Below, piece by piece: positions 21,401-35,521 of a stretch of DNA of 36,870 nt (positions are counted from its first letter, which is position 1; the number at the start of each line of letters is the position of its first letter). This DNA comes from a virus, in IMG/VR virus record IMGVR_UViG_3300044691_000537, positions 1 to 36,870 of that record. One strand, written 5' to 3'. The position numbers and the translations under genes are program-made. Under the pieces are notes generated by a model. That model saw only the letters and a list, made by a program, of their open reading frames with translations. It had not been told where the DNA came from and searched no databases.

Positions 21401-21546
21401 AGTCTTCTAGGGAGTTGAGGGAACGTGTATTGATATTGCGAGTTGCCCGCAAAATGATAGTTGCTGGTACAGATGAAGAGTTCAACAAAGCCGTTAATGA
21501 AATGCGAGCCTTGATTGATCTTCGCACTGTTGCGGAGCAACAGTGA
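21397..21546 (+). CDS. Small hypothetical protein, 49 aa
   Basis: The ATG at 21397 overlaps the preceding stop. The product is helical (MKSSRELRERVLILRVARKM...) and ends TVAEQQ, the same C-terminal residues as the unrelated protein ending at 20452, because both carry the same hairpin. The function is unknown. Confidence 0.55.
   Translation: MKSSRELRERVLILRVARKMIVAGTDEEFNKAVNEMRALIDLRTVAEQQ
21526..21544. repeat. Perfect hairpin at a gene end, copy 2
   Basis: Identical to 20432-20450 (ACTGTTGC-GGA-GCAACAGT), again covering the last codons of a gene and running into a TGATG junction. Two identical copies in unrelated genes suggest a small dispersed element. Confidence 0.85.
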
Positions 21547-21794
21547 TGCACGCTGCAAACGACAATGTACCCAACTGGCCACGCGGTCTTAGCCGATCGC
21601 TGGCCGCTCGTTACATCGGATTCTCCCTACCGGCTTGGGATAAAATGGTGCTGGCCGGTGAGATGCCCAAGCCAAAGCGGGCCTATGGCCGCACCATCTG
21701 GGATAAAATCGCTGTAGACCGGGCTTTTGAGCTATTGGACGGCGGTTCGGCTACAGATACGGCCGGGGAAACTATTTACGAATTTGCGGCTTGA
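21546..21794 (+). CDS. AlpA/MerR-like excisionase candidate
   Basis: The ATG at 21546 overlaps the previous TGA. The 82-residue product starts MHAANDNVPNWPRGLSRSLA and continues ARYIGFSLPAWDKMVLAGEM with PKPKRAYGRTIWDK. This is the short winged-helix layout of AlpA/excisionase proteins: A.YIG.S...F.K.V..G..P.P. It lies close upstream of the integrase, fitting a directionality factor. It has an AANDN string at its N-terminus. Confidence 0.72.
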   Translation: MHAANDNVPNWPRGLSRSLAARYIGFSLPAWDKMVLAGEMPKPKRAYGRTIWDKIAVDRAFELLDGGSATDTAGETIYEFAA

Positions 21795-21800
21795 TGGCGC

Positions 21801-21829
21801 TTGACAGGTAGGACTAACGGGCCTATCAA
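21801..21829 (+). promoter_or_regulatory. TAGG/CCTA-type promoter, copy 1
   Basis: TTGACA, a 17-base spacer and TATCAA. The spacer holds a degenerate palindrome TAGGACT-AAC-GGGCCTA (21809-21825). Four closer copies occur between 26.3 and 29.5 kb. It lies 29 bases before the next ATG and would drive the small genes and the integrase. Confidence 0.68.
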
Positions 21830-21857
21830 GGGTCATCAAGCAACCGGAGTTGAGCAG

Positions 21858-22106
21858 ATGGCCACCAAGCTTAATACCACCAACCAACTGGTTCGCGAGT
21901 TCGCTAGGGTTCTTTCGGCTCCGCAAACAATGGAGCAAACCGCCCTCAATCACGCAGCCGACGAACTTCATTACCAACGAAGCCAGAAGGCCCGCAATGA
22001 TCTGGCCACCGATATTGCACGACGTGATCGCCTTACGATTAAACAGGGTCATTCGCTAAAGTGCGGGATCTTGAAGTGCCATCCAGAGTGCACGGTATCC
22101 AAATGA
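21858..22106 (+). CDS. Hypothetical protein, 82 aa
   Basis: The ATG at 21858 follows GGAGTTGAGCAG and lies downstream of a promoter; the upstream extension of the frame is the promoter itself. The product is helical (MATKLNTTNQLVREFARVLS...HAADELHYQRSQKARNDLAT) with a C-terminal KCGILKCHPEC cluster that could bind a metal. The function is unknown. Confidence 0.55.
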   Translation: MATKLNTTNQLVREFARVLSAPQTMEQTALNHAADELHYQRSQKARNDLATDIARRDRLTIKQGHSLKCGILKCHPECTVSK

Positions 22107-22312
22107 ATCCGAAATGGATCAAAGACAGTGATGGTGATTACACCCTCACTTCACACACCGGCCAGAGTGCTTGGATTGCCAAGTCATCCGGTAGTAGGAA
22201 TCAAAAACCTTGGAACGGTCGCGCTACCAACACGGCTGGCGAACGGGTTAGAATTTCAACGTGGACTCTTAAGGCTGCAAAGCGGGATGCCGAGAAGGCG
22301 TTAGGACTATGA
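22103..22312 (+). CDS. Hypothetical protein, 69 aa
   Basis: The ATG at 22103 overlaps the previous stop (ATGA). The product (MNPKWIKDSDGDYTLTSHTG...WTLKAAKRDAEKALGL) is a small beta-then-alpha protein. It directly precedes and overlaps the integrase gene. The function is unknown. Confidence 0.55.
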   Translation: MNPKWIKDSDGDYTLTSHTGQSAWIAKSSGSRNQKPWNGRATNTAGERVRISTWTLKAAKRDAEKALGL

Positions 22313-23370
22313 AAACCCCAAAGCACATCACCACCGACGTAGGGCCGGACAAAAAGGAGCGATTCTATTATCGCCGCCCGGGTCAGAAGAAGGTCAGGAT
22401 TCATGGTGTGCCTTTTTCTCCGTCATTCATGGCTGAGTACGAAGCGGCAATGACCGGCGTTGCTATTCGCCAGCCGCTTGTAAAAAAGGTTGGCACGTTC
22501 GAATGGCTGTGCGAAAAGTATTTCACGTCCAACGATTTTAGAGAGCTTGACGACGAAGGCTCAAAGCCAATTCGCCGCAATGGGCTTTTGAAGATTTGTC
22601 GTGAACCGGTGAAAGAAAATAGCACCATTACATTTGGCGAAGTTCCGATTCCATCGTTCAACAAAAAGGCTGTTATTGCCATTCGCGACCGTGCGGCTAA
22701 TCGGGGCACGGTCGGAACTGCCAACGACTGGTTAAAGTCAGTTCGCGCCGTATTCAAATGGGCTGCTGATGCCGATGAAATTGATTCGGACCCAGCTAGA
22801 GATGTACATTACATCAATTCGAATTCACGCGGCTTTCATTCGTGGTCAATTGAGGAAGTGGAGACGTTCGAAGCCAAACACCCTATTGGCAGCAAGGAAC
22901 GGCTGGCAATGGGATTGCTTCTGTTTTTGGGGCAACGTGCATCTGATGCGATCCGTGTTGGACCTAACACAGTTAAGAACGGGTGGATTGTTTTCACCCA
23001 GCACAAGAACCGCAACCGCAAGCCGGTTGATATGGAAATACCGATTCGGCCGGAACTGCAGGCGTTGATTGATGCGACTCCGATCGGGAAGGAAACTTTC
23101 CTCGTGAACAGCCTTGGCAGGCCGTACAGCCGCCGTGGGTTTACCGATTGGTTCGGCAAGGCATGCGAAGCGGCAGGCGTTCCCGGCCGCTCACACGGGC
23201 TTCGCAAGGCGGCAGCGGCACGCTTGGCAGAGCTAGGCGCGACTGAGAAAGAGATAATGAGCATCACGGGCCATACTACATCCAAGGAAATCAAGCGGTA
23301 CACGGAAGCCGCCGACAAACGGAAGCTTGCGGTGAATGCTACGGCGCTTAGCGCTAGGAAGGTGGGGTGA
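22309..23370 (+). CDS. int: Tyrosine recombinase (phage integrase)
   Basis: The 353-residue protein has all catalytic residues of the family: Arg210 (FLGQRASDAIR), Lys233 in TQHKNRNRKPV, His296 and Arg299 (HGLRKAAAARLAE), His322 (ITGHTT) and Tyr331 (EIKRYTEAAD). The N-terminal part contains an arm/core-binding segment (GTVGTANDWLKSVRAVFKWA). It integrates and, with the small excisionase upstream, excises the phage genome. The attachment site is not identified; the non-coding region from 25.1 kb is one candidate. Confidence 0.93.
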   Translation: MKTPKHITTDVGPDKKERFYYRRPGQKKVRIHGVPFSPSFMAEYEAAMTGVAIRQPLVKKVGTFEWLCEKYFTSNDFRELDDEGSKPIRRNGLLKICREPVKENSTITFGEVPIPSFNKKAVIAIRDRAANRGTVGTANDWLKSVRAVFKWAADADEIDSDPARDVHYINSNSRGFHSWSIEEVETFEAKHPIGSKERLAMGLLLFLGQRASDAIRVGPNTVKNGWIVFTQHKNRNRKPVDMEIPIRPELQALIDATPIGKETFLVNSLGRPYSRRGFTDWFGKACEAAGVPGRSHGLRKAAAARLAELGATEKEIMSITGHTTSKEIKRYTEAADKRKLAVNATALSARKVG

Positions 23371-23546
23371 TGAAACGGTTTTGGTGGTTCTGGTATTGGT
23401 CATTCACCGGTAAGGCTCATCCTGAACACGTGAAGGCTTGCAAGGTCTGCGGCGGGGAGTGTGGCCAGTGCGGCGGATACGCCGAACCGTCGTACATATG
23501 GAACGGCACGAGATACGTTCGAAACCCGGATTTTAAGGTAAGGTAA
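23370..23546 (+). CDS. Small zinc-finger-like protein, 58 aa
   Basis: The ATG at 23370 overlaps the integrase stop. After a Trp/Phe-rich start (MKRFWWFWYWSFTGKAHPEH) comes a compact CKVCGGECGQCGG cluster, able to hold zinc. The function is unknown. Confidence 0.55.
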   Translation: MKRFWWFWYWSFTGKAHPEHVKACKVCGGECGQCGGYAEPSYIWNGTRYVRNPDFKVR

Positions 23547-23933
23547 ATGTTCAACGAAGATCAGCGTAGCTATATGAAATACCTCGCCACCGTTCCGGCT
23601 TCGAAGAAATGCTATTGCGCTTGGTACATGGCCGATGAATGCCCGAATTGCAAAGGGCGCGGAACGCTTGAAGATCGTTTGAAGGTTCAGTGTCCCGCCT
23701 GCCACAACTACCCGCACCTTGGCGGCAAGCCGACGATTACGCACAATATCAAATGCTCTACGCCGGATTGGCAACCAACCCCGCTAGCGCGGTATTATGG
23801 CGCAAACGCCACAAGCCTTGTATTAGGATCGCCAGCGCAACAAAGTGGCGCGAATGGCATTCGATCTCCCCGATTTCTGGACGACTGTGGGCATTGGCCT
23901 CGCATTGCTGTCTCTCGTACCGGGGATGACTAG
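23547..23933 (+). CDS. Zinc-ribbon protein (DnaJ central-domain-like), 128 aa
   Basis: The ATG directly follows the previous stop. The N-terminal part carries CYCAWYMADECPNCKGRG and VQCPACHNYPH, close to the CxxCxGxG repeats of DnaJ zinc domains. The last 60 residues look unstructured and overlap the start of the next gene, so the natural end could have been altered by a frameshift. The function is unknown. Confidence 0.5.
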   Translation: MFNEDQRSYMKYLATVPASKKCYCAWYMADECPNCKGRGTLEDRLKVQCPACHNYPHLGGKPTITHNIKCSTPDWQPTPLARYYGANATSLVLGSPAQQSGANGIRSPRFLDDCGHWPRIAVSRTGDD

Positions 23934-24612
23934 CGTGCCGAGTGCGAGCCATATAGAATTTAAAGTCTCGCGGTTTTGCGTTTTGGCGGCCGCGACCTTA
24001 TTTTTATTCAAATTAGCGCTTTGGGGGTCTGAAAGCTTGACCATAACGCGCCTCGCCTTAGTGGCGGTATTTGGGGCCTTGATTGCGGTTTCCGCAGCTT
24101 ATGCGCTTCATTGGATCAATAGGAAGGAAGAGGCGACCATCCCTGCGCTAACTCCTGTTGCGCAAGATTCGAAAGAAATCGCCCCCAAGATTACAGATGA
24201 CAAAAAACAGACTGCCATTGCCGCCCCGATACCGGTTGAGACGCATGAACAACAAGCCCCAGCGCGGAGAGGGCCTACTTTAGAAGCTACGAATGGCTCA
24301 AGGATTGATGCAACCGGAGCAATAATTCCGGGAGACTTGCCCTTTCAATTTGGCAAGGCGGACGGCGGTTCGGTTATCGATATGCCCGGAACGGTTGTCA
24401 CGCGTCGGGAGGACGGGTCTATTACTATTGAGCCCGGCAAAATACCAGTCAACCGAACCTTTCCACCCCCGACAGGTGAATTTTCAAATCTTTCTAACGA
24501 TGAAATGAGAGAGCGGGCTCTGGCCACGGCCATCAGCGTTGCCCGGGGTGGCAACGTGGGGAGGAGGATAGCTCCGCAGGATGTACAAATCAAGATACCG
24601 AAGGGGAAGTGA
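23854..24612 (+). CDS. Rhizobiales-type membrane protein with periplasmic tail
   Basis: The ATG at 23854 (GTG at 23845 possible) gives 252 residues. Three hydrophobic spans lie in the first 110 residues. A Pro/Ala linker follows, then a conserved region GSRIDATGAIIPGDLPFQFG with GGSVIDMPGTVVTRREDGSI. I recall the same region in many Rhizobiales chromosomal and phage proteins of unknown function. It probably sits in the inner membrane with a soluble C-terminal domain. Confidence 0.65.
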   Translation: MAFDLPDFWTTVGIGLALLSLVPGMTSVPSASHIEFKVSRFCVLAAATLFLFKLALWGSESLTITRLALVAVFGALIAVSAAYALHWINRKEEATIPALTPVAQDSKEIAPKITDDKKQTAIAAPIPVETHEQQAPARRGPTLEATNGSRIDATGAIIPGDLPFQFGKADGGSVIDMPGTVVTRREDGSITIEPGKIPVNRTFPPPTGEFSNLSNDEMRERALATAISVARGGNVGRRIAPQDVQIKIPKGK

Positions 24613-24788
24613 TGCCAAAACGAATTCCAATTACCACGGCCAAGGCCGTTGCCGAAAAGCACGACCTTTCGCAGGTTCTGCTTATTGGATGGGATGGTGA
24701 GCGCGTTCACGTCGTCACATACGGCAAGACCAAAGCAGACTGCGAATCGGCGGCAAAGGTCTCATCCGTAATTTTGTTCAGGAATTAG
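24612..24788 (+). CDS. Small hypothetical protein, 58 aa
   Basis: The ATG at 24612 overlaps the previous stop (TGATG). The product (MPKRIPITTAKAVAEKHDLS...GWDGERVHVVTYGKTKADCE) is a compact alpha/beta protein resembling small phage proteins with a QVLLIGWDG motif. The function is unknown. Confidence 0.58.
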   Translation: MPKRIPITTAKAVAEKHDLSQVLLIGWDGERVHVVTYGKTKADCESAAKVSSVILFRN

Positions 24789-24848
24789 ACCGCTTCGCCA
24801 ACGGCACAAAACCGGCCTAAACCGCTAACAAACCTGTCCCGAGGGAAA
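24788..24848 (+). repeat. Partial duplicate of the next gene's 3' end
   Basis: GACCGCTTCG followed by AACGGCACAAAACCGGCCTA and an AACCTGTCC string occurs here. The corresponding order (GACCGCTTCG ... ACAAAACCGGCCTA ... AACCTGTCC) recurs at the end of the following gene (from about 25070 to 25147). The shared tail suggests a deleted tandem copy. No gene is encoded in this 60-base gap. Confidence 0.5.
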
Positions 24849-25139
24849 ATGATGAAGCTACCCGTAGAATTCTATCCCTCGCACGTTCAGCTAGAAATTG
24901 ATTCTAGCCGAACCGTTGGAATTTATGAAGTCGGATCGAAGGAAGTTATGGGTTGGGTAATCGGCCCGGCTGATGAAATAGACCTATCTGCCTCATACAC
25001 ATTCGAAGCCGAAGTTGATGGGGACTGGTACCGGTGGGTAGGTCAACGGGCTATCCTCGAAAGCCCTGACCGCTTCGTTTTCAGGCTTCGAAACGGCCAG
25101 CCCTTCAAGGCAAACAAAACCGGCCTAAAACCGGAATAA
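24849..25139 (+). CDS. Hypothetical protein, 96 aa
   Basis: The ATG follows GAGGGAAA. The product is beta-rich and acidic (VEFYPSHVQLEIDSSRTVGI, then FEAEVDGDWYRWVGQ). It is the last gene before the large non-coding region. No family is recognised. Confidence 0.58.
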   Translation: MMKLPVEFYPSHVQLEIDSSRTVGIYEVGSKEVMGWVIGPADEIDLSASYTFEAEVDGDWYRWVGQRAILESPDRFVFRLRNGQPFKANKTGLKPE

Positions 25140-25142
25140 ACC

Positions 25143-25364
25143 TGTCCAACTTTCCCGTAGCCTTGGACAAAAACGCCGAATTTTCCAATGATTTCACACC
25201 GCCATACCCCACTTCCTATACCGGCATGGTGTAGGATTCCGAAAAATAGTGTCATGTTTTCAAGTAGTTAGACGATTTTTCTGTCCAAGAGATTTCTAGG
25301 CCGTTCTATGAAAGTAAAAGACTATTGGTTTTATTGTCCAAAATTTTTTCACAAGAATGTCCAA
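25143..25364. repeat. TGTCCAA iteron-like motif cluster
   Basis: Direct copies of TGTCCAA lie at 25143-25149, 25282-25288, 25335-25341 and 25358-25364, with an inverted copy TTGGACA at 25163-25169. Five copies of a seven-base word in about 220 AT-rich bases is far above chance. Such clusters are typical of initiator-binding iterons or integrase/Xis arm sites. Confidence 0.6.
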
Positions 25365-25498
25365 GCTTTTTAGATCGCCTACACAGGGAATCCCTTTACC
25401 CCGCAGCGCAACGTGGCTAATCTTCCTCCCGCGTCTCTTGGCTTCAAATCCACGAACGCCTTTAGGCGGCAAAGATCAGACCGGCCATTTCTGCCGGG

Positions 25499-25749
25499 CG
25501 GCCCCACGAATAACCGTTAGTAGCAGCGCGGGGCCGCACCCTGCGTGGCGGGAATAATGGGGGTCAGCAATCTTTGCTGCTGAATTTGAACCGCCCGGCA
25601 CCAACCGGGCTCGTACAGAGGCCCGCCAGCCGGACCTAGCCAAGTAGCGGCTAGGCCGGAATAATGCACCCTGAGCCACGGCTGGCCGGTTTGAGATAGG
25701 GCCTAAAGCTACAGCCGTATTGGATAAACCTGCCCGGTTTTGAACCGGG
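25499..25749. repeat. Array of strong hairpins
   Basis: Perfect or near-perfect stems follow each other: CGGCCCC/GGGGCCG (25499-25505 with 25530-25536), CAGCAA-TCT-TTGCTG (25565-25579), GCCCGG-CACCAA-CCGGGC (25593-25610), CCGGaCCTAGCC/GGCTAGGCCGG (25630-25659) and CCCGGTT-TTG-AACCGGG (25733-25749). The string GGAATAATG occurs twice, each time after a GC-rich hairpin. The density suggests a folded RNA or a protein-organised DNA site. Confidence 0.65.
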
Positions 25750-26083
25750 TGGCCGATGTCACTTGCCGATGACCCCGATCGCTGACAATCCCAGATGTAA
25801 CCGAGCGGCTACACTGCCCGTGGATCATATGGAAGTAGCCCCACTATCGTAGGGGCGCACGGTCAGATCAGAAAAATCGAACTTGCGTTGTAAACCTATC
25901 CCACAGAAACGGTGACCGCTATTGGGCGTCCACAAGACGGTATTCATTCGATGGGGTAAAACTTTCTTCTGACTGCCAACGTTTTTCATGAACCGGCCCA
26001 CCTTTTGCTGGGGCATCTCGCTTGTATCCAAGCCGGGACAGCTTAGTCAACCTGTAGCCGCTCCGTATCCCCAAAATAAGCGT

Positions 26084-26102
26084 TGTAGCTACTTGCGCTA
26101 CA
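26084..26102. promoter_or_regulatory. Repressor-type operator
   Basis: TGTAGC-TACTTGC-GCTACA is a perfect copy of the TGTAGC-N7-GCTACA palindrome found at the leftward operon promoters. A further half-site TGTAGC is at 26114-26119. A possible promoter (TTGCGC, 17 bases, TAGCTA) overlaps both, pointing to the gene at 26145. Confidence 0.68.
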
Positions 26103-26144
26103 GCGCGCGATAGTGTAGCTAAATTGGGGACAGAGGGGAATCTC

Positions 26145-26318
26145 ATGAAACAAACACCCGAACAACTGCGCCAGCACCTATTGCACAAATACGCCCACAT
26201 CGGATGTCCGGCCACTGGGTACGAGGACAATTGCGATCGGCCGGGAGCTTGTGCGGAGAATGGCCGGTGTCTCGATTTGCCGCTGCAGCCTTGGTTTGCC
26301 CCGGCGAAAGAAAATTGA
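26145..26318 (+). CDS. Small Cys-containing protein, 57 aa
   Basis: The ATG at 26145 follows AGAGGGGAATCTC, the leader also used at 6206 and 32463. The product (MKQTPEQLRQHLLHKYAHIG...) has Cys in HIGCPATGYEDNCDRPG and CAENGRC, which could bind a metal. It sits alone behind a repressor-type operator. The function is unknown. Confidence 0.58.
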   Translation: MKQTPEQLRQHLLHKYAHIGCPATGYEDNCDRPGACAENGRCLDLPLQPWFAPAKEN

Positions 26319-26337
26319 AAATAGTTTGTTTTGTCTG

Positions 26338-26366
26338 TTGACTCATAGGCCCAGTGGTCCTATCAA
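26338..26366 (+). promoter_or_regulatory. TAGG/CCTA-type promoter, copy 2
   Basis: TTGACT (26338-26343), 17-base spacer, TATCAA (26361-26366). The palindrome TAGGCCC-AGT-GGTCCTA fills the spacer. GACTC (a GANTC site) overlaps the -35. A leader GGGTCATCAGAACAAAGGAA follows, shared with the copy at 27121. Confidence 0.78.
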
Positions 26367-26393
26367 GGGTCATCAGAACAAAGGAACAAGCAA

Positions 26394-26582
26394 ATGACCG
26401 TCCTCGCTGGCCACGACTACCACACCAAATCAGACGCCGCGCTGCTCTACATCATTCGCGACGCAAGCGAAGCTGCGGTGGCAATGCGCGGAGTTAGCTA
26501 TCAGGCCGAATGCAAGTATCTGGATCAGGCCAACGATGCCTGCTCAATCATGAACGCACGTAGAAGGGCGGTGGCAGCGTGA
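26394..26582 (+). CDS. Hypothetical protein, 62 aa
   Basis: The ATG follows AAGGAACAAGCAA after a conserved leader. The product is helical (HTKSDAALLYIIRDASEAAV...) and ends RRRAVAA. It is the first gene behind its own promoter. The function is unknown. Confidence 0.6.
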   Translation: MTVLAGHDYHTKSDAALLYIIRDASEAAVAMRGVSYQAECKYLDQANDACSIMNARRRAVAA

Positions 26583-26770
26583 GTGCCATCGCGGACTACA
26601 AGCCCCGCCCGACCCGATTCACTGAGTTGGGTTACACCAACTACTGCGGTATCTGGCGCATTGTGGCTATGGACACTGTCAACGTCGTTGGCCCGATCTA
26701 CCAGAGCAAAGCCGAGTTGCTGGCGGACTTGCCGCGATACGCTCGCGACTACGGCTGTGAGGGTTCGTAA
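26579..26770 (+). CDS. Hypothetical protein, 63 aa
   Basis: A GTG at 26579 overlaps the previous stop (GTGA). The product (MSAIADYKPRPTRFTELGYT...IYQSKAELLADLPRYARDYG) is a small alpha/beta protein with aromatic residues. The function is unknown. Confidence 0.55.
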   Translation: MSAIADYKPRPTRFTELGYTNYCGIWRIVAMDTVNVVGPIYQSKAELLADLPRYARDYGCEGS

Positions 26771-26771
26771 C

Positions 26772-27131
26772 ATGCCTTGGGTCGCGCCAATCATCGGCTA
26801 CAGCGACAACGTCGGGGTGCTGCGGTGCAGCCCCTGCGCCTCCGAAGATAAGAGGCAACAGCCGGTGTACGGCGATTCTTGGTTTGGCTCTGATGATGTT
26901 TGCGAAGCGTGCCAACGTCGATTCGAACACGTGCCGAGCCGGGATTATGTGCAGGTGGCTTGGGGCTTTCCGACGCCCGATATTGTTTTCAAGGAGGCCC
27001 CGCCAATGATCGACCTAACCAAAATACACCAGCAAGCCGTAACGGTCGCCAATGCGGCCTGCGGTATTTCGTGGCGATCAGCCTACAACAAAGAATTTTC
27101 GCGATTGCTGAAAATAGCCGTTGACTCATAG
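26772..27131 (+). CDS. Zinc-ribbon-like protein, 119 aa, with an internal start
   Basis: The ATG at 26772 starts two bases after the previous stop. The first half holds LRCSPCASED and DVCEACQRRFEH, a possible four-Cys zinc ribbon. An AAGGAGG directly precedes an in-frame ATG at 27006, so a 41-residue C-terminal protein (MIDLTKIHQQAVTVANAACG...) may also be made. The last codons and stop lie inside the next promoter. The function is unknown. Confidence 0.55.
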   Translation: MPWVAPIIGYSDNVGVLRCSPCASEDKRQQPVYGDSWFGSDDVCEACQRRFEHVPSRDYVQVAWGFPTPDIVFKEAPPMIDLTKIHQQAVTVANAACGISWRSAYNKEFSRLLKIAVDS

Positions 27132-27149
27132 GTCCAATGGGCCTATGAA
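27121..27149 (+). promoter_or_regulatory. TAGG/CCTA-type promoter, copy 3
   Basis: TTGACT, 17-base spacer with palindrome TAGGTCC-AAT-GGGCCTA (27129-27145), TATGAA. GACTC overlaps the -35. The following leader GGGTCATCAGAACAAAGGAG is almost the same as behind copy 2, up to the ribosome binding site. Confidence 0.8.
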
Positions 27150-27177
27150 CGGGTCATCAGAACAAAGGAGCACGGAA

Positions 27178-27432
27178 ATGACTAAGCGCCAACCCCACGA
27201 ATTTAATCGCGTCGGACAGGACACCTCGCACGCCGATGGCAAGCTCCGCGCGATGGAAGACGCCGCTCGCGCTGGCGCGAAGGGTGCCAGCAAGGTTTTC
27301 CCGGATAGCTTTGGCGGCAAGTGGCTGTCGGTTTACTGCCGCGACGGCGTCCTGAGCTACAATTGGCAGGGCGGATATCCGACGAATGATGTCTCGCGGG
27401 AAACTGCAGTATCGGTTCTGGCATTCCGATGA
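27178..27432 (+). CDS. Hypothetical protein, 84 aa
   Basis: The ATG follows AAAGGAGCACGGAA. The product begins MTKRQPHEFNRVGQDTSHAD and has a helical AMEDAARAGAKGASKVFPD segment, then a beta region with Trp. It is a soluble protein without recognised family, first in its own short transcription unit. Confidence 0.6.
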   Translation: MTKRQPHEFNRVGQDTSHADGKLRAMEDAARAGAKGASKVFPDSFGGKWLSVYCRDGVLSYNWQGGYPTNDVSRETAVSVLAFR

Positions 27433-27551
27433 AAAACCCCAACGCCAAAACACTAGACGAACTTTTCGCCAGCGAAGACCCGGCCGACTTGCCGTTGCTG
27501 GAATGGGTGCTGGCGGAAATGCGGGAGTTTTATGCTCCGGTGGTGAAGTGA
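27429..27551 (+). CDS. Small acidic protein, 40 aa
   Basis: ATGA overlap with the previous gene. The product begins MKNPNAKTLDELFASEDPAD and continues LPLLEWVLAEMREFYAPVV; it is acidic and helical. The stop overlaps the next ATG. The function is unknown. Confidence 0.5.
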   Translation: MKNPNAKTLDELFASEDPADLPLLEWVLAEMREFYAPVVK

Positions 27552-27709
27552 TGAACTACGAACGAGAAGAGGCCGCCAGAATGCAGGCAGCCACAGAAGA
27601 TATGATCAGAATGCGGTTTCAACAGTTTGGACGAAAAACGAGCCCAACTGTTGAAACCGTCCTCCGGCCGATCGAAAATAAAATAGAAATAGTTTCAGAA
27701 GGCTGTTGA
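27551..27709 (+). CDS. Small hypothetical protein, 52 aa
   Basis: TGATG overlap with the previous gene. The product begins MNYEREEAARMQAATEDMIR. Its middle is encoded over a 14-base perfect inverted repeat and its stop lies in the next promoter. It may be real or a carrier frame for that hairpin. Confidence 0.48.
   Translation: MNYEREEAARMQAATEDMIRMRFQQFGRKTSPTVETVLRPIENKIEIVSEGC
27614..27659. repeat. 14-bp perfect inverted repeat
   Basis: CGGTTTCAACAGTT (27614-27627) is the exact reverse complement of AACTGTTGAAACCG (27646-27659), with an 18-base spacer that pairs two further bases. It lies about 47 bases upstream of promoter copy 4. There is no T run on the plus strand side, so it is not a simple terminator. 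Confidence 0.85.
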
Positions 27710-27734
27710 CTCATAGGACCATTGGGCCTATCAC
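27706..27734 (+). promoter_or_regulatory. TAGG/CCTA-type promoter, copy 4
   Basis: TTGACT, 17-base spacer with TAGGACC-ATT-GGGCCTA (27714-27730), TATCAC. GACTC overlaps the -35. It drives the gene at 27781 and probably the ParB-like gene. Confidence 0.78.
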
Positions 27735-27780
27735 TGTTTCCAAGGAAGACGGCAACACACCACCAACCGGGGGAACCCAA

Positions 27781-28005
27781 ATGGCCCAACTCTTCGAAAC
27801 CACCATCACCTTCACCACCCACGAAGAGTCCGAGCAATTTTTTTCCGGCCTTGGTTATACTGCCATCCCCGTTCGTGGTCGTCGCGTTCTCGTTTCCAAC
27901 AACTGGGACGATTTCGGCAATCCCATCATGACTTTTGCACGGCAACACCTTGGCGACGTTCTCACCTATTCTCTTTCCGACGTTGCCCGTAAGGCGGTGG
28001 CGTGA
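27781..28005 (+). CDS. Hypothetical protein, 74 aa
   Basis: The ATG at 27781 is the first start after the promoter; an upstream extension of the frame would be the promoter itself. The product (MAQLFETTITFTTHEESEQF..., VRGRRVLVSNNWDDFGNP) is a small alpha/beta protein. The function is unknown. Confidence 0.58.
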   Translation: MAQLFETTITFTTHEESEQFFSGLGYTAIPVRGRRVLVSNNWDDFGNPIMTFARQHLGDVLTYSLSDVARKAVA

Positions 28006-28173
28006 ATGTGGGAAATCGTAAATGTAAATGGCTGGCGCTGGGGTAGCGAGACATACCCCAGCGAAGAGGCTGCGAAATTTGAGTTGAAAACGTTATGGCG
28101 CGGCGTCTCTGGCGTCAATTTAAAGAAATTCACCATCCAACTAGTGAAGGACTCCCCCCATGCAATTCCGTGA
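28006..28173 (+). CDS. Small hypothetical protein, 55 aa
   Basis: The ATG begins directly after the previous stop (TGAATG). The product (MWEIVNVNGWRWGSETYPSE...) resembles a small beta-alpha domain with Trp residues. It overlaps the ParB-like start by 14 bases. The function is unknown. Confidence 0.52.
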   Translation: MWEIVNVNGWRWGSETYPSEEAAKFELKTLWRGVSGVNLKKFTIQLVKDSPHAIP

Positions 28174-28933
28174 CCACTCCGCCGTAAAAGGCAAGCGCGA
28201 TTCGTATCCCGTCGCCCCCCGGGCATTGAAGATTGATCCCGCTTACAACGTTCGGGACATGCAAGACCCGGAGACTATCGCGCACGTCCGTTGGCTGGCC
28301 GACTCCATCAAAGAGAACGGAGTCAAGGTGCCACTGGAAGTGCGGCTTGACGGCGAAGACATTTTTGTCGTCGCGGGCCACTGTCGGCACGCTGGCACCA
28401 TGCTTGCCATCAGCGAAGGCGCGGAAATCGCAACCGTAATGGTGATTCCCGAACCGAAGGGTACCAACGAGGTTGAGCGCACGCTGAACCTTGTCACGAG
28501 CAACAGCGGCAAGGCGCTAACGCCGCTGGCCATAGCCGAAGTCGTACGCCGCTTACTGGCCTTCGGTTGGACCAACGAAGCCATTGCAAAGCGGCTGGGC
28601 TGGAAGTCGGTTGCAACCGTCGACAATGCCGTTACGCTGCTGGGTGCCAGCCCCGACGTGAAGGAAATGGTTCGCAGCGGTGCGGTGTCAGCGTCGACCG
28701 CGAGTAAGGTGGTAAAGAAGGAAGGCAACAAGGCGGGAGCTACCCTTGCCGCTGCGGCTGTCAACGGCAAGGTGACTGCGAAGACGATTCGGGCCAGCAA
28801 AGGCGAGTTTGATCCGTCGCCAAAGAACGTGGCTGTGCTGGTGGATTTTGTTCGTAGTTGTGCGATTGGGCATTCGGCCCTAAAGACTGCGGCTTGCAAG
28901 GTTATGGAAAAGATTGGGTTGGAGGCGGCGTGA
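28160..28933 (+). CDS. Orphan ParB-like nuclease/partition protein
   Basis: The 257-residue product has a ParB/Srx N-terminal domain (LADSIKENGVKVPLEVRLDG, then VVAGHCRHAGTM, the box II GxHR-like motif as GHCRHAG). It is followed by a ParB-type helix-turn-helix (TNEAIAKRLGWKSVATVDNA) and a C-terminal helical domain. No ParA partner is seen, so it is likely a DNA-binding regulator or nuclease rather than a partition system. Its gene lies amid the TAGG/CCTA promoters, making it one candidate for the factor that reads that palindrome. Confidence 0.8.
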   Translation: MQFRDHSAVKGKRDSYPVAPRALKIDPAYNVRDMQDPETIAHVRWLADSIKENGVKVPLEVRLDGEDIFVVAGHCRHAGTMLAISEGAEIATVMVIPEPKGTNEVERTLNLVTSNSGKALTPLAIAEVVRRLLAFGWTNEAIAKRLGWKSVATVDNAVTLLGASPDVKEMVRSGAVSASTASKVVKKEGNKAGATLAAAAVNGKVTAKTIRASKGEFDPSPKNVAVLVDFVRSCAIGHSALKTAACKVMEKIGLEAA

Positions 28934-29055
28934 TGTACGGAAGAACCGTGACGGTCGATGGGAAAGAGTACTTCGTGGCATGTTGCCCCGATACGCCTTG
29001 CAGCGAAATATTGCGGCGGGCCGCTGTGCAGGCACAGATAGAGGAAGCGGCGTGA
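28933..29055 (+). CDS. Small hypothetical protein, 40 aa
   Basis: TGATG overlap with the ParB-like gene. The product begins MYGRTVTVDGKEYFVACCPD and ends IEEAA. Two adjacent cysteines and a helical tail are seen. The function is unknown. Confidence 0.5.
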   Translation: MYGRTVTVDGKEYFVACCPDTPCSEILRRAAVQAQIEEAA

Positions 29056-29180
29056 TGACGCCAGAGCAAAGAGCGGCCGATTGGTTCACGTTACCACCGG
29101 CCGCCAGAACGAAGGCATGGTTGGCAAGGGAATTTCGCAAAGCGATTGAGGAAGCGACTGCTGAGAAGGAATCGAAGTGA
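29055..29180 (+). CDS. Small helical protein, 41 aa
   Basis: TGATG overlap again. The product begins MTPEQRAADWFTLPPAARTK and continues AWLAREFRKAIEEATAEKE: basic and helical. The function is unknown. Confidence 0.5.
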   Translation: MTPEQRAADWFTLPPAARTKAWLAREFRKAIEEATAEKESK

Positions 29181-29470
29181 CCCACCTAGCCACACTAACC
29201 GCCGCTGGCGTTATCACGGTCGACGCCAGCCGCGTTGTAAGGCTCACCCGTGAAGCTTGGCGGGTGATGACCGGTACACCGGTATTGCACTTCGTTGGCT
29301 TCAAAGATGACCGTTACCACGCTGCGGTGCGGGTTTGGGGCAAGCCGGACTTTTACCACCGGTTCTACGATCGGAGGGCGGTGGCCGATATCGCGCTTGG
29401 CGATAAGGTGGTGTTTGCCGGGTCGGAGGAAGTACGGGAATATTCATACGATGATAGTGCAAATTGGTAG
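29177..29470 (+). CDS. Hypothetical protein, 97 aa
   Basis: GTGA overlap with the previous gene. The product contains VITVDASRVVRLTREAWRVM and YHAAVRVWGKPDFYHRFYDR, a mixed alpha/beta protein. Its stop lies directly before promoter copy 5. The function is unknown. Confidence 0.55.
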   Translation: MTHLATLTAAGVITVDASRVVRLTREAWRVMTGTPVLHFVGFKDDRYHAAVRVWGKPDFYHRFYDRRAVADIALGDKVVFAGSEEVREYSYDDSANW

Positions 29471-29499
29471 TTGACATGTAGGACCGTTGGGCCTACGGT
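29471..29499 (+). promoter_or_regulatory. TAGG/CCTA-type promoter, copy 5
   Basis: TTGACA, 17-base spacer with TAGGACC-GTT-GGGCCTA (29479-29495), TACGGT. The -10 is weaker than in the other copies. A GANTC site (GAGTC) lies just downstream at 29500-29504 rather than in the -35. It precedes the operon that ends with GcrA. Confidence 0.7.
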
Positions 29500-29529: not shown

Positions 29530-29703
29530 ATGCTGAACTCATTCGTCCAAATAAAATCGACCTCTCACGAGGCCCCCGAATTTCGCGGCGTGAAGGGTCG
29601 CATCATTCGCGAAAACGCGCACGGCTACATCGTCGTAAAGACGACCGATGGGCGTGAGGTAGTTCTTCACCCCGAAAGCGTGCGCGTGTTGGAGAAAAAA
29701 TAA
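29530..29703 (+). CDS. Small KOW/SH3-like protein, 57 aa
   Basis: The ATG at 29530 lies 14 bases after a GGGGAG. The product begins MLNSFVQIKSTSHEAPEFRG and continues VKGRIIRENAHGYIVVKTTD with a short tail. The V.I...G.I......YIV....G KOW-like pattern suggests a single SH3 barrel. The function is unknown. Confidence 0.52.
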   Translation: MLNSFVQIKSTSHEAPEFRGVKGRIIRENAHGYIVVKTTDGREVVLHPESVRVLEKK

Positions 29704-29921
29704 TGGACAACTACGACGCCGCGCTGAAATCTGAATCTGCGCGCGTTGTTCGCCATTGGCAATCGTATTCCGTTGAGGCTCGCACAATCATGGCGTCAGG
29801 GAATCTCCAATATCGTAGCCGCGCTGGTGAGTATTTCTATGTCCATCCCGAGTTGCCGAACGTAGCTTTTAAGAAGCGCAAGTTAGCGGCGCAAGCTGCC
29901 ATTGAGAAAGACCCATCATGA
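29703..29921 (+). CDS. Hypothetical protein, 72 aa
   Basis: TAATG overlap with the previous gene. The product (MDNYDAALKSESARVVRHWQ...GEYFYVHPELPNVAFKKRK) is small, basic and mixed. The function is unknown. Confidence 0.52.
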   Translation: MDNYDAALKSESARVVRHWQSYSVEARTIMASGNLQYRSRAGEYFYVHPELPNVAFKKRKLAAQAAIEKDPS

Positions 29922-30085
29922 CCCCCACCGGCATGGAAGAAGTCCTAGCCCTAGAGATCGCCATACGGGCGTTTCTCAAGACAGGTAAGAGCGAGGAAGC
30001 TTCACAGCTACTGGCGCAGCCGTGGCGTGGTTCTGGGACACGTCTGGCGGCGTTGAGGGATGTTGTGGGGAGACTCCAATCATGA
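29918..30085 (+). CDS. Small helical protein, 55 aa
   Basis: ATGA overlap with the previous gene and overlap with the GcrA start. The product begins MTPTGMEEVLALEIAIRAFL and contains EEASQLLAQPWRG; it is all-helical. The function is unknown. Confidence 0.5.
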   Translation: MTPTGMEEVLALEIAIRAFLKTGKSEEASQLLAQPWRGSGTRLAALRDVVGRLQS

Positions 30086-30468
30086 GCAACCAAAATAAAT
30101 CAATGTGGACGCCAGAACTAACCGACCGGTTACGACAACTATGGCCGGATCATTCGGCAAGCCAGATATCGAAGCTGTTCGAGGCTGACGGTCACGCCAT
30201 AACCCGGTCTGCTGTCATCGGAAAATCTCAACGGATGGTGTTGAGCGCCAAGGCATTCACGAACGTTCCTAGGGAAGAGCAACGCCGCAAGAAAAACTTG
30301 CGGGAGGCTGGCTACAAAGCCGCAAAGCGCCAAGCAGCCGTTGTACTGCGAACCACCGGAAAGCTATCACAGAGCCGCGCTAGGCGGCTGGAACCCCTAT
30401 CTAAGTCAGAGCTACGCGCCATGTTCGCACAAGCCGCGTTGAACACGCAGGCTCTGCAGGCCGCATAA
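30082..30468 (+). CDS. GcrA-family transcriptional regulator
   Basis: The ATG at 30082 gives 128 residues. The N-terminus MWTPELTDRLRQLWPDHSAS with QISKLFEADGHAITRSAVIG and KSQRM is the GcrA helix-turn-helix region (W...L..LW..G.SASQIA..L..VTRNAVIGK.HR). In Caulobacter, GcrA binds RNA polymerase sigma70 and CcrM-methylated GANTC promoters. Here four of five TAGG/CCTA promoters and two of three repressor modules carry GANTC in or next to the promoter. The C-terminal half is basic and lacks the full GcrA C-terminal domain. It probably redirects host transcription. Confidence 0.82.
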   Translation: MSNQNKSMWTPELTDRLRQLWPDHSASQISKLFEADGHAITRSAVIGKSQRMVLSAKAFTNVPREEQRRKKNLREAGYKAAKRQAAVVLRTTGKLSQSRARRLEPLSKSELRAMFAQAALNTQALQAA

Positions 30469-30473
30469 AAAAA

Positions 30474-30501
30474 GCGCCCCTACTCCGAAGAGTAAGGGCG
30501 C
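30474..30501 (-). terminator. Rho-independent terminator of the leftward operon
   Basis: GCGCCC-cTACTC-CGAA-GAGTAa-GGGCGC forms an 11-base-pair stem with a four-base loop. On the minus strand it is followed by seven T residues. It ends the leftward operon from 35.1 kb, right after its last gene. It also closes the convergent rightward operon after GcrA, though without a T run on that strand. Confidence 0.88.
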
Positions 30502-30504
30502 GAG

Positions 30505-30612
30505 TCAGTCACTTGGAAAGCCGTAGTAAATGTAATTCTCATGGGCAATAAACTTATTGCAGCCGTGAATGGTTAGGGCCAGTAGCAAGGCAGCGAAGAT
30601 TAGGCGGCCCAT
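30505..30612 (-). CDS. Tiny lipoprotein, 35 aa
   Basis: The ATG at 30612 overlaps the kinase stop. The product begins MGRLIFAALLLALTIHGCNK and continues FIAHENYIYYGFPSD. A signal peptide with lipobox cysteine leaves a mature peptide of 18 residues. Its stop sits three bases from the terminator stem. The role is unknown. Confidence 0.55.
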   Translation of the reverse strand: MGRLIFAALLLALTIHGCNKFIAHENYIYYGFPSD

Positions 30613-31136
30613 GATAGGTCGTCGCAGAACTGGTTTACTTTATAGCGTAATTCCTCAATGGATTTGTCATTTACGATAACGGTAGCAACCTTCGGCTTGA
30701 ACTGCTCTGAGATGTGGTCCGAGTCTATCCCTCCGCGTCCTACAAGCTGCAGAACCAATCCTCCCCGCTTCACAATCGCCGCTTCCTCGTTGTCGTGGCG
30801 AAGGTCGTCAAAAAGCAGATTATCCGAGCCGTCTTTGGCGTCGAACTCAATATCAACCCAGAAATCTTCCCCGCCGAACTCTCTCCCCCATTGGCCGAGA
30901 CCCTGCATGAACTCTCGCGGCGACTTGCCACCGAGATAGTTTGATGGCAATTCCTTTAGAGAGCCTTCAACGTAAGCCTCAATCGACTTTTCATTAAGCC
31001 CCTGATACCGCAGCAACGCCCGCAGCATATCCTTCAACGCGTTCGCAAACTTGCCCTTCACAAATCCGCGCTCAATCAAGACTTCCGCGGCGGTCCCTTT
31101 TCCTGAACCAGCCTCTCCCGCGATACCGATAATCAC
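30600..31136 (-). CDS. Deoxynucleoside monophosphate kinase-like P-loop protein
   Basis: The 178-residue product has a P-loop GEAGSGKGTAAEVL (residues 6-19), then FANALKDMLRALL, GKSPREFMQGLGQWGRE and FDDLRHDNEEAAIVKRGG. This is the phage dNMP kinase layout (P-loop, LID-like helical segment, DDxR). It would phosphorylate dNMPs to feed phage DNA synthesis. It shares the operon with MazG-like and deoxyribosyltransferase-like proteins. It ends LSWAA. Confidence 0.78.
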   Translation of the reverse strand: MIIGIAGEAGSGKGTAAEVLIERGFVKGKFANALKDMLRALLRYQGLNEKSIEAYVEGSLKELPSNYLGGKSPREFMQGLGQWGREFGGEDFWVDIEFDAKDGSDNLLFDDLRHDNEEAAIVKRGGLVLQLVGRGGIDSDHISEQFKPKVATVIVNDKSIEELRYKVNQFCDDLSWAA

Positions 31137-31339
31137 TTGTTAAAAAACCTCCTCAGTAGATACGAACGGGCCAGCGATATAATCGTGAACCAAGCCGAAA
31201 CGATTAGACTCTGCTCTAGACTAATCGGGAAACCGAACGCGGGATAAATGACGAATTGCGAAGCAACCGCCACGACGTAACCAACAACAGTGTTTGCTAT
31301 CGACTCAACACCGGACATGAACCGCGATTGGCTCACCAC
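31133..31339 (-). CDS. DUF7220-like membrane protein, 68 aa
   Basis: The product is MVSQSRFMSGVESIANTVVG, followed by two hydrophobic spans and ARSYLLRRFFNK. The Q-S-R-x-M-S-x-V-E-x-x-x-N start and S-x-x-R-S-Y-x-L-R-R-x-F end match a small phage membrane family (DUF7220). The function of the family is unknown. It overlaps both neighbours. Confidence 0.7.
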   Translation of the reverse strand: MVSQSRFMSGVESIANTVVGYVVAVASQFVIYPAFGFPISLEQSLIVSAWFTIISLARSYLLRRFFNK

Positions 31340-31713
31340 TTCTTCCCATTAGGAGCTAGCCGCGCTTCTCTCGTGTGATCCAGCCGTGTGGCGTTGTAAG
31401 AGCGTTTCTCCGCCACAGCGCCGTCAAGGTCTAGGTCGTACGCGCCAGCATAATCGAAAAGTCTTATCAACACGTCCGCTAGCTCAACCTCAACGCACTT
31501 GCGGTGCGGTAAGTGGTCGTCCATCAAGTTCTTGCGCTCGCCCTCGAAAGCTTCCGCTAGCTCCGTAACCATCAACATGAGCATTTCACCCTTGTTGCGT
31601 TCCAGCTTTGCGCCTGTAACCAAGTCGTGCCAGAATTGTTGGTTGGTGGCGTGGCAATCGCGGGCTAGATCGTTGAGGGGAGTTGGCTGAAATAACGCGA
31701 AAACTGGCATCAT
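31333..31713 (-). CDS. MazG-like nucleotide pyrophosphohydrolase
   Basis: The 126-residue all-alpha protein contains MLMLMVTELAEAFEGERKNL with the EE/ExxE-type metal motif, then CVEVELADVLIRLFDYAGAY (ExxD). This is the MazG/dUTPase-like all-alpha NTP pyrophosphohydrolase pattern. It would cleave NTPs or dNTPs to monophosphates, or lower alarmone levels as proposed for phage MazG. The ATG pair at 31713/31710 overlaps the upstream gene. Confidence 0.78.
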   Translation of the reverse strand: MMPVFALFQPTPLNDLARDCHATNQQFWHDLVTGAKLERNKGEMLMLMVTELAEAFEGERKNLMDDHLPHRKCVEVELADVLIRLFDYAGAYDLDLDGAVAEKRSYNATRLDHTREARLAPNGKKW

Positions 31714-32159
31714 TGCACACCCCTCATACCAGCCGCAATATGTGCAATAGCCGCTTCAATGTCCGTGGTGACCAACGAAGCAAAATTGTACATCACGTCG
31801 TAGCGCTCCGGTTCCTTGTCGAGCAAGATCACACCCGGCACGCCACCCCTCCGCGCGAAACCGAATTCCATATGGCCGGACTTACCGGCCGGGAGAACCA
31901 TAATCACGCCTTCGCTGCGAAGGATGTTGTCACGGTCAAGCGCGAACGTGTTCTGAGCAGCACGGCCAGCCAGCGCTTCGGCGTACGATCGGCCACGCAG
32001 CTTTTCATACGCAAACCAATGATCGTCAGCTTCCGGGCCTGTCCCGTGCCAGTCATCGAACGCTTCAAAACCGGCCGCCCTTACGGCGTTGCCAACAATG
32101 GGTATCTGCGGATTCCGCAATGAACCAATGATGTAGATGCAGGGTTTTCGTGCTAACAA
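31710..32159 (-). CDS. Nucleoside 2-deoxyribosyltransferase-like protein
   Basis: A TTG at 32159 after GAGAGGAA gives 149 residues and avoids overlap with the gene upstream. The sequence YIIGSLRNPQIPIVGNAVRA, then FDDWHGTGPEADDHW, LDRDNILRSEGVIMVLPAGK and SGHMEFGFA resembles the deoxyribosyltransferase fold (SLxN, D..D, GxxxExG). It may exchange bases on deoxyribose or salvage nucleosides. The family match is by motif order only. Confidence 0.7.
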   Translation of the reverse strand: MLARKPCIYIIGSLRNPQIPIVGNAVRAAGFEAFDDWHGTGPEADDHWFAYEKLRGRSYAEALAGRAAQNTFALDRDNILRSEGVIMVLPAGKSGHMEFGFARRGGVPGVILLDKEPERYDVMYNFASLVTTDIEAAIAHIAAGMRGVQ

Positions 32160-32172
32160 AATTCCATTCCTC

Positions 32173-32463
32173 TCAATTGATTGTGAAATCTTTAAAAACC
32201 AACTCCGCTGCAATTTTTTCTACGCGACCATTCTTTGCAGCCAATCGCCACACGTCGCCAGCTTCTTCACCTTCACCGTCAATACGAATAAGTACGTTCG
32301 GAAATCGTTTTGAAACTTCCGACATGTCTTTTTCGTGGTCGTACCACTTGCAAGAATCGTCAAAAAGATTGCCGTAGTCACTTACGGTTTCGATACACTC
32401 TTTGATGGCTTGTGCGTCGCCACCTTCGGCAGACACGAACTCATATCGCGTGTAGTAGCCCAT
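32173..32463 (-). CDS. Hypothetical protein, 96 aa
   Basis: The ATG at 32463 follows TTTAGAGGGGAATCT. The product (MGYYTRYEFVSAEGGDAQAI...RLAAKNGRVEKIAAELVFKD) is a soluble alpha/beta protein. The MGYYTR start is seen in several small phage proteins of unknown function. Confidence 0.6.
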   Translation of the reverse strand: MGYYTRYEFVSAEGGDAQAIKECIETVSDYGNLFDDSCKWYDHEKDMSEVSKRFPNVLIRIDGEGEEAGDVWRLAAKNGRVEKIAAELVFKDFTIN

Positions 32464-32473
32464 AGATTCCCCT

Positions 32474-32908
32474 CTAAAGTTCTTTAATCCAAAACAATGT
32501 TTCTTTTGCCCACGGTCGTTCAACTTCGCAAAGCTTGAAGCCTGCGCGAAAATGGTTATTCGCGGACGCTGGGTTGTTTGCGCTGCATTCCGATATTAAG
32601 TGAGTCCAATCGGTGGACTCTCTCGCGAGAATCTCACTGGCTTCGATCAACTGGCGCTGCAATCCCTTGCCGCGGTGTTCCTTAAGGACGGCCTGTCGCT
32701 TTGTGTAGCCAACTCGCGGGAACGGTTCGAACGGCACCAAGCCAGCGAAAGCAACAACTTGAATCCCGTGATGGACAAACCACCAAAAGCCATTGGACAA
32801 GTGGCGATCCTCTAGCGGCAGGAAATCTTTCTTAAAAAGTCCGTTGAACCGCTTTATCTCGTCGGTGTATTCGATTCCTGATACTTCCGTTATGCTGTAA
32901 CAGGTCAT
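32474..32908 (-). CDS. GNAT-family N-acetyltransferase
   Basis: The ATG at 32908 (MTCYSITEVSGIEYTDEIKR) overlaps the preceding stop and gives 144 residues. The acetyl-CoA motif reads HRGKGLQRQLIEAS (R/QxxGxG/A), followed by SECSANNPASANNHFRAGFK (motif B: N..A...Y...GF). It probably acetylates a small molecule or protein; the target is unknown. Confidence 0.8.
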   Translation of the reverse strand: MTCYSITEVSGIEYTDEIKRFNGLFKKDFLPLEDRHLSNGFWWFVHHGIQVVAFAGLVPFEPFPRVGYTKRQAVLKEHRGKGLQRQLIEASEILARESTDWTHLISECSANNPASANNHFRAGFKLCEVERPWAKETLFWIKEL

Positions 32909-33282
32909 CAATAAAACGCCTTCAAATCGAATCCGTGATATTTGCAAACCTTGTCGGCCAGCTTTCGAAAGGCTGCGTTATGAGTGTTGCGCCCGCCGCG
33001 CTTACTTTCCTTGCCGGTCAATTCAAGGTGCAAATGAATAATTTCATGCGCCATGAATTGCATCAGAGTCATTGTGTGACCGATGGCATGGACTGATGCC
33101 GTGATTACGTGCTGACTTCCACTCCACTGGTAGTTTCCGTACTCAACGCGACTCCGCGATAGCTTGAATTTAATTTGATCCGCGCTTGGCAGCTTCCATC
33201 TATGAAACGGTGGAGTTGTTCTAAGGTAGTCAAACGCCGCTGCCATCGTCTCTCGCGTCATTGGCAGCGAGAAATTAGCCAT
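32908..33282 (-). CDS. SprT-like zinc metalloprotease domain protein
   Basis: The 124-residue product carries MQFMAHEIIHLHLELTGKES: an HExxH zincin motif followed by a conserved helix. HNAAFRKLADKVCKYHGF supplies the third-ligand region as in SprT/Spartan families. It could be a protease acting on proteins near DNA, or simply a metal-binding phage protein. It overlaps the genes on both sides. Confidence 0.72.
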   Translation of the reverse strand: MANFSLPMTRETMAAAFDYLRTTPPFHRWKLPSADQIKFKLSRSRVEYGNYQWSGSQHVITASVHAIGHTMTLMQFMAHEIIHLHLELTGKESKRGGRNTHNAAFRKLADKVCKYHGFDLKAFY

Positions 33283-33424
33283 TCAAATCGTCTTCATCAG
33301 AGTTGGTTTCATTCTGGCCCGGCCACGTTTCGCCAACATCGATTCCGTTATCGCGCGCCCATGCCTGCCAGCCATATGATAGTTCTTGCGGGTAGTCGTA
33401 GGTTGCTTCGTATTTTCTCGGCAT
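33275..33424 (-). CDS. Small acidic protein, 49 aa
   Basis: The ATG at 33424 overlaps the HNH gene stop. The product begins MPRKYEATYDYPQELSYGWQ and contains AWARDNGIDVGETWPGQ with an acidic tail, resembling short adaptor-like phage proteins. The function is unknown. Confidence 0.52.
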   Translation of the reverse strand: MPRKYEATYDYPQELSYGWQAWARDNGIDVGETWPGQNETNSDEDDLNG

Positions 33425-33825
33425 TACGCGGCCTTCTCTAGCTCTATGGTGTTATCGTTGGCTGGCTCTGGTAGATGACGCCAGCGCTTAGAGCGCTTGC
33501 GTTCAGCATTTTGTTTGGGCGTAACCCACTCTAGATTGCCACGGACATTGTTTAGACTCTCGGAGTCCCCGTGATCGCCAATAGTGTGTTTTGCTGACGG
33601 TGGTATTGCTCCCATACGCTCCGACAATATCGCCTTGTGAAGATAGATTTTTCGTCGGACTTTGCCCGGCCCCGTGGTCGACCGTGTCGCGTATTTCTTG
33701 ACCTTGTGACGGTCCCACGTGAATTGCCATTTCCATTGCAGGCACCATTCGTAGTCAATTGGTGAGACTAAACAGAAAATAGATTCGTCATGTGGCGAGA
33801 GGTATACGCGGCACTCTTCCGTCAT
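33424..33825 (-). CDS. Free-standing HNH endonuclease with ssrA-like tail
   Basis: The 133-residue product has an N-terminal beta region (VYLSPHDESIFCLVSPIDYE) and a C-terminal HNH-type motif: HTIGDHGDSESLNNVRGNLE followed by WVTPKQNAERKR. That is the H...N...N/NL.W.T.. pattern of phage homing HNH proteins. It sits between the metallophosphoesterase and small genes without interrupting them. The C-terminus ANDNTIELEKAA is one of the recurrent tag-like tails. Confidence 0.8.
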   Translation of the reverse strand: MTEECRVYLSPHDESIFCLVSPIDYEWCLQWKWQFTWDRHKVKKYATRSTTGPGKVRRKIYLHKAILSERMGAIPPSAKHTIGDHGDSESLNNVRGNLEWVTPKQNAERKRSKRWRHLPEPANDNTIELEKAA

Positions 33826-35099: not shown

Positions 35100-35128
35100 A
35101 ATGTGTGTTCCTTCTCGGGGAATTGACT

Positions 35129-35167: not shown

Positions 35168-35184
35168 GGGTCTAGTGGGGTTGG

Positions 35185-35520: not shown

Positions 35521-35521
35521 T

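Follow-up and report, generated by a model that had tools for sequence, protein, structure and literature searches.

The DNA analyzed here, referred to as the window, is a 36,870-nt viral stretch (IMGVR_UViG_3300044691_000537), in which five promoter-like elements, all on the + strand, head short accessory operons, one of them ending with a tyrosine integrase gene. Each element consists of a -35 hexamer TTGAC[AT], 17 bases and a -10 hexamer starting with TA, and the five copies, at 21801, 26338, 27121, 27706 and 29471, keep constant spacing. A palindrome, TAGGNCC-N3-GGNCCTA, begins 2 bases past the -35 hexamer, and its terminal TA supplies the opening dinucleotide of the -10 hexamer; the description of the palindrome as buried in the spacer, made in the original prediction from the sequence alone, thus holds for most of its length but not for its end, since the last TA overlaps the -10. 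The coordinates, strand and invariant geometry given there were reproduced, with four sites (26338, 27121, 27706 and 29471) matching TTGACN3-TAGGNCC-N3-GGNCCTA exactly and site 21801 (TAGGACT-AAC-GGGCCTA) deviating by 1 mismatch. This joint pattern occurs 4 times in the window versus 0 in 1000 dinucleotide shuffles, and a looser form, TTGACN3-TAGG-N9-CCTA, 5 times versus 1 hit in 1000 such shuffles; on its own, with 3 or fewer mismatches allowed, the palindrome shows no enrichment in the window (11 found, 8.7 expected). A consensus promoter scan, which demands T as the last -10 base and 9/12 matches, misses all five sites, and Rfam yields no match anywhere in the window.

The window also contains the operator of the immunity repressor, TGTAGC-N7-GCTACA, with exact copies at 9136, 26084 and 35129 and near matches at 10347 and 10379. 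The three exact copies lie far apart, and one is directly upstream of gene 26145. In two syntenic relatives of the window, G050 and G051, this operator is retained where the TAGG palindrome has changed, which bears out the earlier claims that the two palindromes are distinct and that a second regulator, rather than the S24-type immunity repressor, reads the TAGG palindrome; S24 was rejected as its reader.

The motif search of other phages that the original prediction had called for was run with TTGACN3-TAGGNCC-N3-GGNCCTA in IMG/VR and in bacterial and archaeal species genomes, and returned at least 119 IMG/VR stretches, with more than 100 phage contigs carrying the module, and 25 stretches in the species genomes. 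The 99 distinct contexts among the matches listed yield the consensus TTGACA-nA-TAGGRCC-AWT-GGYCCTA-TnTT, that is, a symmetric operator in a promoter with a 17-base spacer, a TATNTT -10 and an A-rich stretch upstream of the -35. Independent signal comes from the positions that the query left free (the sixth base of the -35, the center, the remaining -10 bases and the flanks), only TTGAC and both arms having been fixed. Among cultured phage records, DNA queries recovered one real case, Bordetella avium prophage IFTN8. The generic operator was found in 1 of 50 records comprising 48 relatives identified by way of protein 13058 and phages 7-7-1 and OLIVR4, and a de novo scan of the retrieved stretches of these 48 relatives for further palindromic promoters revealed no clear multi-copy set. 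In one 71% relative, two promoters (L168:1701 and 13793, - strand coordinates) carry a TTACC...GGTAA palindrome in the spacer, possibly another operator type.

The linked HTH family and the operator variants

Downstream of the promoter, the motif loci encode small helix-turn-helix (HTH) proteins with the signature RTVRRW-x-AG-[DE]-R-x-IP. Of the 100 distinct sites among the matches listed, 79 are followed on their own strand by such an HTH gene that ends no more than 2.5 kb away, as are 46 of the 56 sites that have at least 2.5 kb of downstream DNA; most of these genes end 250-1000 bp past the site. The background, 12 hits in 1.26 Mb from 80 related loci found by another protein, amounts to 0.012 per 2.5 kb and strand. 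A query of cultured phage records with one of the HTH proteins retrieved only three distant records. In one phage group (L074, L091 and L109), each contig has one or two operators, and additional CTAGG half-sites precede the -35; behind the operators of L074 and L091, no gene of this HTH family was found.

When compared with the PDB, the profile of the HTH family produced top hits to Aca10 (7xi5, 3.7e-6) and Aca1 (7c0g, 3.8e-5), followed by Aca3 (0.03), and in sequence profiles the family groups with the solved structures of Aca10, Aca1, HigA-2 and Aca3; a single-sequence search placed Aca3 (1e-4) ahead of Aca10 (0.0016). Pfam returned general HTH families only, all below cut-off (Aca2_YdiL, 14.4 bits versus 23.8). 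The VC1465 family (NF040522), which was rejected, and the HigA/MqsA antitoxins are distantly similar in their HTH (best 2e-6), and the scores fall well short of the curated cut-offs (25.8 versus 70; 20.1 versus 61.8). The published Aca1 operator, TAGGCAC-AAT-GTGCCTA, is given in the context TTGCGA-AT-TAGGCAC-AAT-GTGCCTA-ATCT (PMC9410881), where it has the same 17-bp frame and promoter position as the palindrome described here, with the hexamers TTGCGA and TAATCT assigned in the present analysis. Aca families are reported to act as repressors by way of a repeat located within the core promoter (PMC9410906), and the repeat studied here likewise lies inside the core promoter and overlaps its elements. 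Thus, judging from the sequence, the palindrome looks like an Aca-type operator and would work like one, and its reader is most likely a small Aca-type HTH autorepressor.

Searches widened to TTGACA-TAGG-N9-CCTA and TAGGGCG forms uncovered operators with other inner triplets, and NCC, GCG/GCA, CCA/CCG, CGG, TGA, AAA and AAC all occur with HTH genes nearby. Among 139 unique HTH-operator pairs, 102 have NCC on both sides, 24 have NCA/NCG, 4 are mixed and 9 are of other types. One column of the HTH alignment covaries with this classification: after setting aside pairs gapped at that column (16 NCC and 10 NCA/NCG), Arg is present in 81 of 86 NCC pairs versus 1 of 14 NCA/NCG pairs, and in 21 of 24 versus 1 of 11 when proteins are clustered at 60% identity. 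Shuffling the labels 2000 times across 53 columns yielded an uncorrected p = 0.0005 for the covarying column. With the hidden Markov model (HMM) masked at the loop, Arg was found in 66 of 74 NCC pairs versus 1 of 14, and an alignment-free rule gave 61 of 83 versus 1 of 23. The covarying column aligns with R44 of Aca10, which the Aca10 paper describes as the residue most critical for DNA binding; the covariation provides independent support for the HTH proteins being the readers of the palindromes.

Probable repressor of the window lineage and alternative readers

The relatives nearest to the window through its ParB-like protein, G050 and G051, are syntenic with it and have operators at matching places, 5 and 3 sites, respectively, of the form TAGGGCG-N3-YGCCCTA or close to it; in all three, an operator stands right after an AlpA-like gene (window 21801, G050 16908, G051 22806). 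A fourth contig, G102, corresponds to the right-hand half of the window (integrase, 53%; homologue of 24612, 85%; ParB-like protein, 79%; the 30600-36116 block) and runs about 17 kb past its right end. It carries eight TAGGGCG-type operators, one with an 18-bp spacer, and directly behind the last of these encodes a 79-amino-acid HTH protein of the Aca-type family (E 7e-18), with homologues in L384 (3300010373_000253, from the same metagenome as G050) and L385, each behind an operator copy. Sets of similar size are found in other phages, with 10 copies each in G125 and G127, 4 in G126 and 5 each in G128 and G145. The two largest sets (3300036846_000738 and 3300036832_000640; contigs of 77 and 54 kb) consist of TAGGCC[AG]-type operators. 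Within one phage, all copies share one variant, and in close relatives the copies have changed together.

We consider it very likely, on the strength of these sequence comparisons, that the five elements are sigma-70-type promoters, each with the operator for a small Aca-type HTH repressor, acting as a dimer, set into its spacer and -10. Upon entry into a naive cell, where there is no repressor, all copies would fire, so that the accessory proteins and the integrase would be made in a burst; the repressor, produced from its own operator-headed operon, would then occupy every copy, block RNA polymerase and shut off the whole set. The gene list, read by eye, contains no recognized terminase, portal, capsid or other structural gene, so the window is a fragment. 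Neither the window nor the left flank of G051, which reaches about 5 kb past the left end of the window, contains an HTH gene of this family, whereas the right extension of G102 encodes one; therefore, we predict that the repressor gene of the window phage lies beyond position 36870, as in G102, and that its product has Arg at the R44 position, because the window operators are of the NCC type.

Several observations weigh against this interpretation. No Aca-type HTH protein was detected in the window (best hits, E 1.7 and 0.28, both to the ParB-like protein, and 0.13) or in G050 and G051, both of which are partial. HTH genes are lacking within 2.5 kb of 21 of the 100 sites, 11 of which have less than 2.5 kb of downstream DNA; of the other 10, four are genome-contig hits that may be due to chance and six are unexplained. 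Furthermore, 3 of the 24 NCC clusters do not have Arg at the covarying position, and the first HMM seed pattern demanded Arg at that very position, a concern that the masked test answers in part. Finally, no known acr gene was identified behind the operator in family-level scans, made without a dedicated acr library, which covered six window proteins in PADLOC and, in Pfam, ten proteins of the window operons and ten cargo proteins drawn from the 113 clusters.

Among the alternatives, an unlikely one is that the ParB/KorB-like protein (28160-28933), a candidate of the original prediction, reads the five sites and autoregulates its own operon. KorB acts at many operators on IncP plasmids. The ParB-like gene is always inside an operator-headed operon in the window, G050, G051 and G102, and the protein is present in only three of 47 records examined, all three with operators. 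Yet its family, phrog_1033, is represented in just 6 of 40 motif-bearing phage records and, in a second set of 24 records, in 5, four of these being the window lineage; no homologue of 28160 was found in the motif loci, and G102 has both the ParB-like and the Aca-type protein. Moreover, the window and G051 have almost identical ParB recognition helices despite different operators, and G050 and G051, with operators of one type, have different ParB recognition helices. The ParB-like protein may be a second reader, though not the one that serves the motif in general. The two other phage proteins put forward at the outset fared no better: GcrA (30082) is not detected in G050 and G051, which keep operators, and GcrA-like proteins give one weak hit (L142) in the motif loci, whereas the Cro-position protein (10397/10415) has no relative there.

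Rather improbable, too, is that the phage has no repressor of its own and that the operator is read in trans by that of the host or of a co-resident prophage. Such a scheme would accommodate the lack of an HTH gene of this family in the window, G050 and G051, and solo Aca-like genes are widespread in bacteria (PMC9410906). The presence of a single variant per phage and the concerted change in relatives, however, point to a cognate phage gene, G102 encodes the HTH protein, and the window being a fragment, the phage's own repressor gene may lie outside it. There is very little probability that the AlpA-like protein (21546-21794), so labeled from its sequence and without a Pfam match, reads the palindrome and serves as an activator: its gene adjoins site 1 in the window, G050 and G051, but it has no homologue in 145 motif loci, and distant AlpA-like homologues occur in relatives whose records gave no generic site. 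Least probable of all is that the palindrome is a methylation-sensitive element with two GGNCC units, as seen in the four exact window copies, given that the TAGGGCG, TAGGCCA, TAGGCGG, TAGGTGA and TAGGAAA variants keep the frame and lose the paired GGNCC units.

Operon contents and relation to known systems

The operator geometry has a classical counterpart in phage lambda, where OR1, a 17-bp operator, lies between the -35 and -10 of PR and overlaps the -10; unlike in lambda, the immunity repressor of the window has a separate operator, TGTAGC-N7-GCTACA. The repressor family, small HTH proteins acting on an inverted repeat in the core promoter with a 17-bp frame, is shared with Aca1 of Pseudomonas phage JBD30 and the Aca1-10 class. 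The published Aca systems considered here act on their own acr-aca operon through one or two repeats, whereas here 5-10 operator copies per phage are distributed over separate operons, with variants switching together. Several copies of one promoter and operator per element are also characteristic of the regulon of plasmid p576, in which one regulator, Reg(p576), controls many such copies and an early anti-defense-type burst is expected after entry (PMC8708921). By analogy, p576 is the closest functional counterpart, but it is a plasmid, its operators are described as flanking the promoters and have a different DNA sequence, and its cargo includes a known anti-restriction gene. A conserved promoter element likewise marks early accessory genes across many archaeal viruses with anti-defense genes, although these involve archaeal promoters and viruses (PMC11065993).

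No multi-operon Aca regulon appeared among the literature matches listed for Aca proteins and regulons, a search that did not extend to subscription titles, the first Aca1 study among them, and the exact operator strings led to no relevant paper. What is new is the use of one Aca-type operator over 5-10 promoters per phage, including that of the integrase operon, with specificity switching together; the repressor and operator are themselves of a known kind, so that multi-operon use is a variant of Aca-type control rather than a new kind. Whether the picture extends further is an evenly balanced matter: TAGG-xyz-N3-z'y'x'-CCTA in a TTGACA/TATNTT promoter might be an interchangeable cassette, read by Aca-type proteins in which the Aca10-R44 position sets the innermost base, common to phages of many bacteria and copied over 5-10 operons, including that of the integrase, as a phage-wide anti-defense regulon whose operators switch in concert between close relatives. 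If this were true, one short DNA pattern would mark early, probably anti-defense, accessory genes in uncultured phages without acr bait, and cassette scanning would list the candidates. The operators and repressors would also offer natural pairs on which a DNA-recognition code could be tested, as well as an example of close relatives in which all copies of an operator set have shifted specificity jointly.

The genes behind the window operators (Table 1) support the earlier view of a regulon of short accessory operons, to which we add the integrase operon, unmentioned in the original prediction; the integrase follows the operator in the same gene order in the window, G050, G051 and G102.

Table 1. 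Promoter/operator elements of the window and the features behind them
Feature	Position	Strand	Description
Promoter/operator 1	21801..21829	+	-35 TTGACA 21801-21806; palindrome 21809-21825, 1 mismatch; -10 TATCAA 21824-21829
Operon 1 first gene, 82 aa (amino acids)	21858..22106	+	No Pfam match
Tyrosine integrase, last gene of operon 1	22309..23370	+	PF00589; overlaps preceding ORF (open reading frame) 22103-22312
Promoter/operator 2	26338..26366	+	TTGACT; palindrome 26346-26362; -10 TATCAA
Operon 2 first gene, 62 aa	26394..26582	+	No convincing Pfam match
Promoter/operator 3	27121..27149	+	TTGACT; palindrome 27129-27145; -10 TATGAA
Operon 3 first gene, 84 aa	27178..27432	+	82% identical homologue in L152 behind different palindromic promoter
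Promoter/operator 4	27706..27734	+	TTGACT; palindrome 27714-27730; -10 TATCAC
Operon 4 first gene, 74 aa	27781..28005	+	No convincing Pfam match
ParB/KorB-like protein, operon 4	28160..28933	+	phrog_1033, PF17762
Promoter/operator 5	29471..29499	+	TTGACA; palindrome 29479-29495; weak -10 TACGGT
Operon 5	29530..30468	+	29530-29703, 29703-29921, 29918-30085, GcrA-like 30082-30468
Terminator-like hairpin behind operon 5	about 30474-30501	reported on -	After GcrA-like gene

The ten window operon proteins checked in Pfam gave no convincing match, and the PADLOC scan of six window proteins gave none. Across loci, the 155 first genes behind the operator fall into 113 similarity clusters; the ten cargo proteins examined in Pfam included LPD29, RadC and HD domains above cut-off and a SprT-like match below cut-off. 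Homologues of window gene 21858 start 59 bp behind the same operator type in L076 and stand behind a variant operator in L051, and by this sequence evidence cargo appears to move with the operator. In L152 (8990-9050), the homologue of window gene 27178 is located behind TTGACA and another palindrome, CGAC-N6-GTCG, which suggests that this cargo can also come under the control of a different operator.

In beta- and gammaproteobacterial phage loci (L048:3877-3960, L112, L053 and others), many of the leaders just behind the operator contain a short hairpin rich in GC, such as GGGAAGCGC...GCCCGGCCC or GGGCAATGGTGCCC. Against shuffled sequences, the folding z-score lies below -1.5 for 25 of 102 leaders, and the hairpin is a possible RNA element or second protein site.

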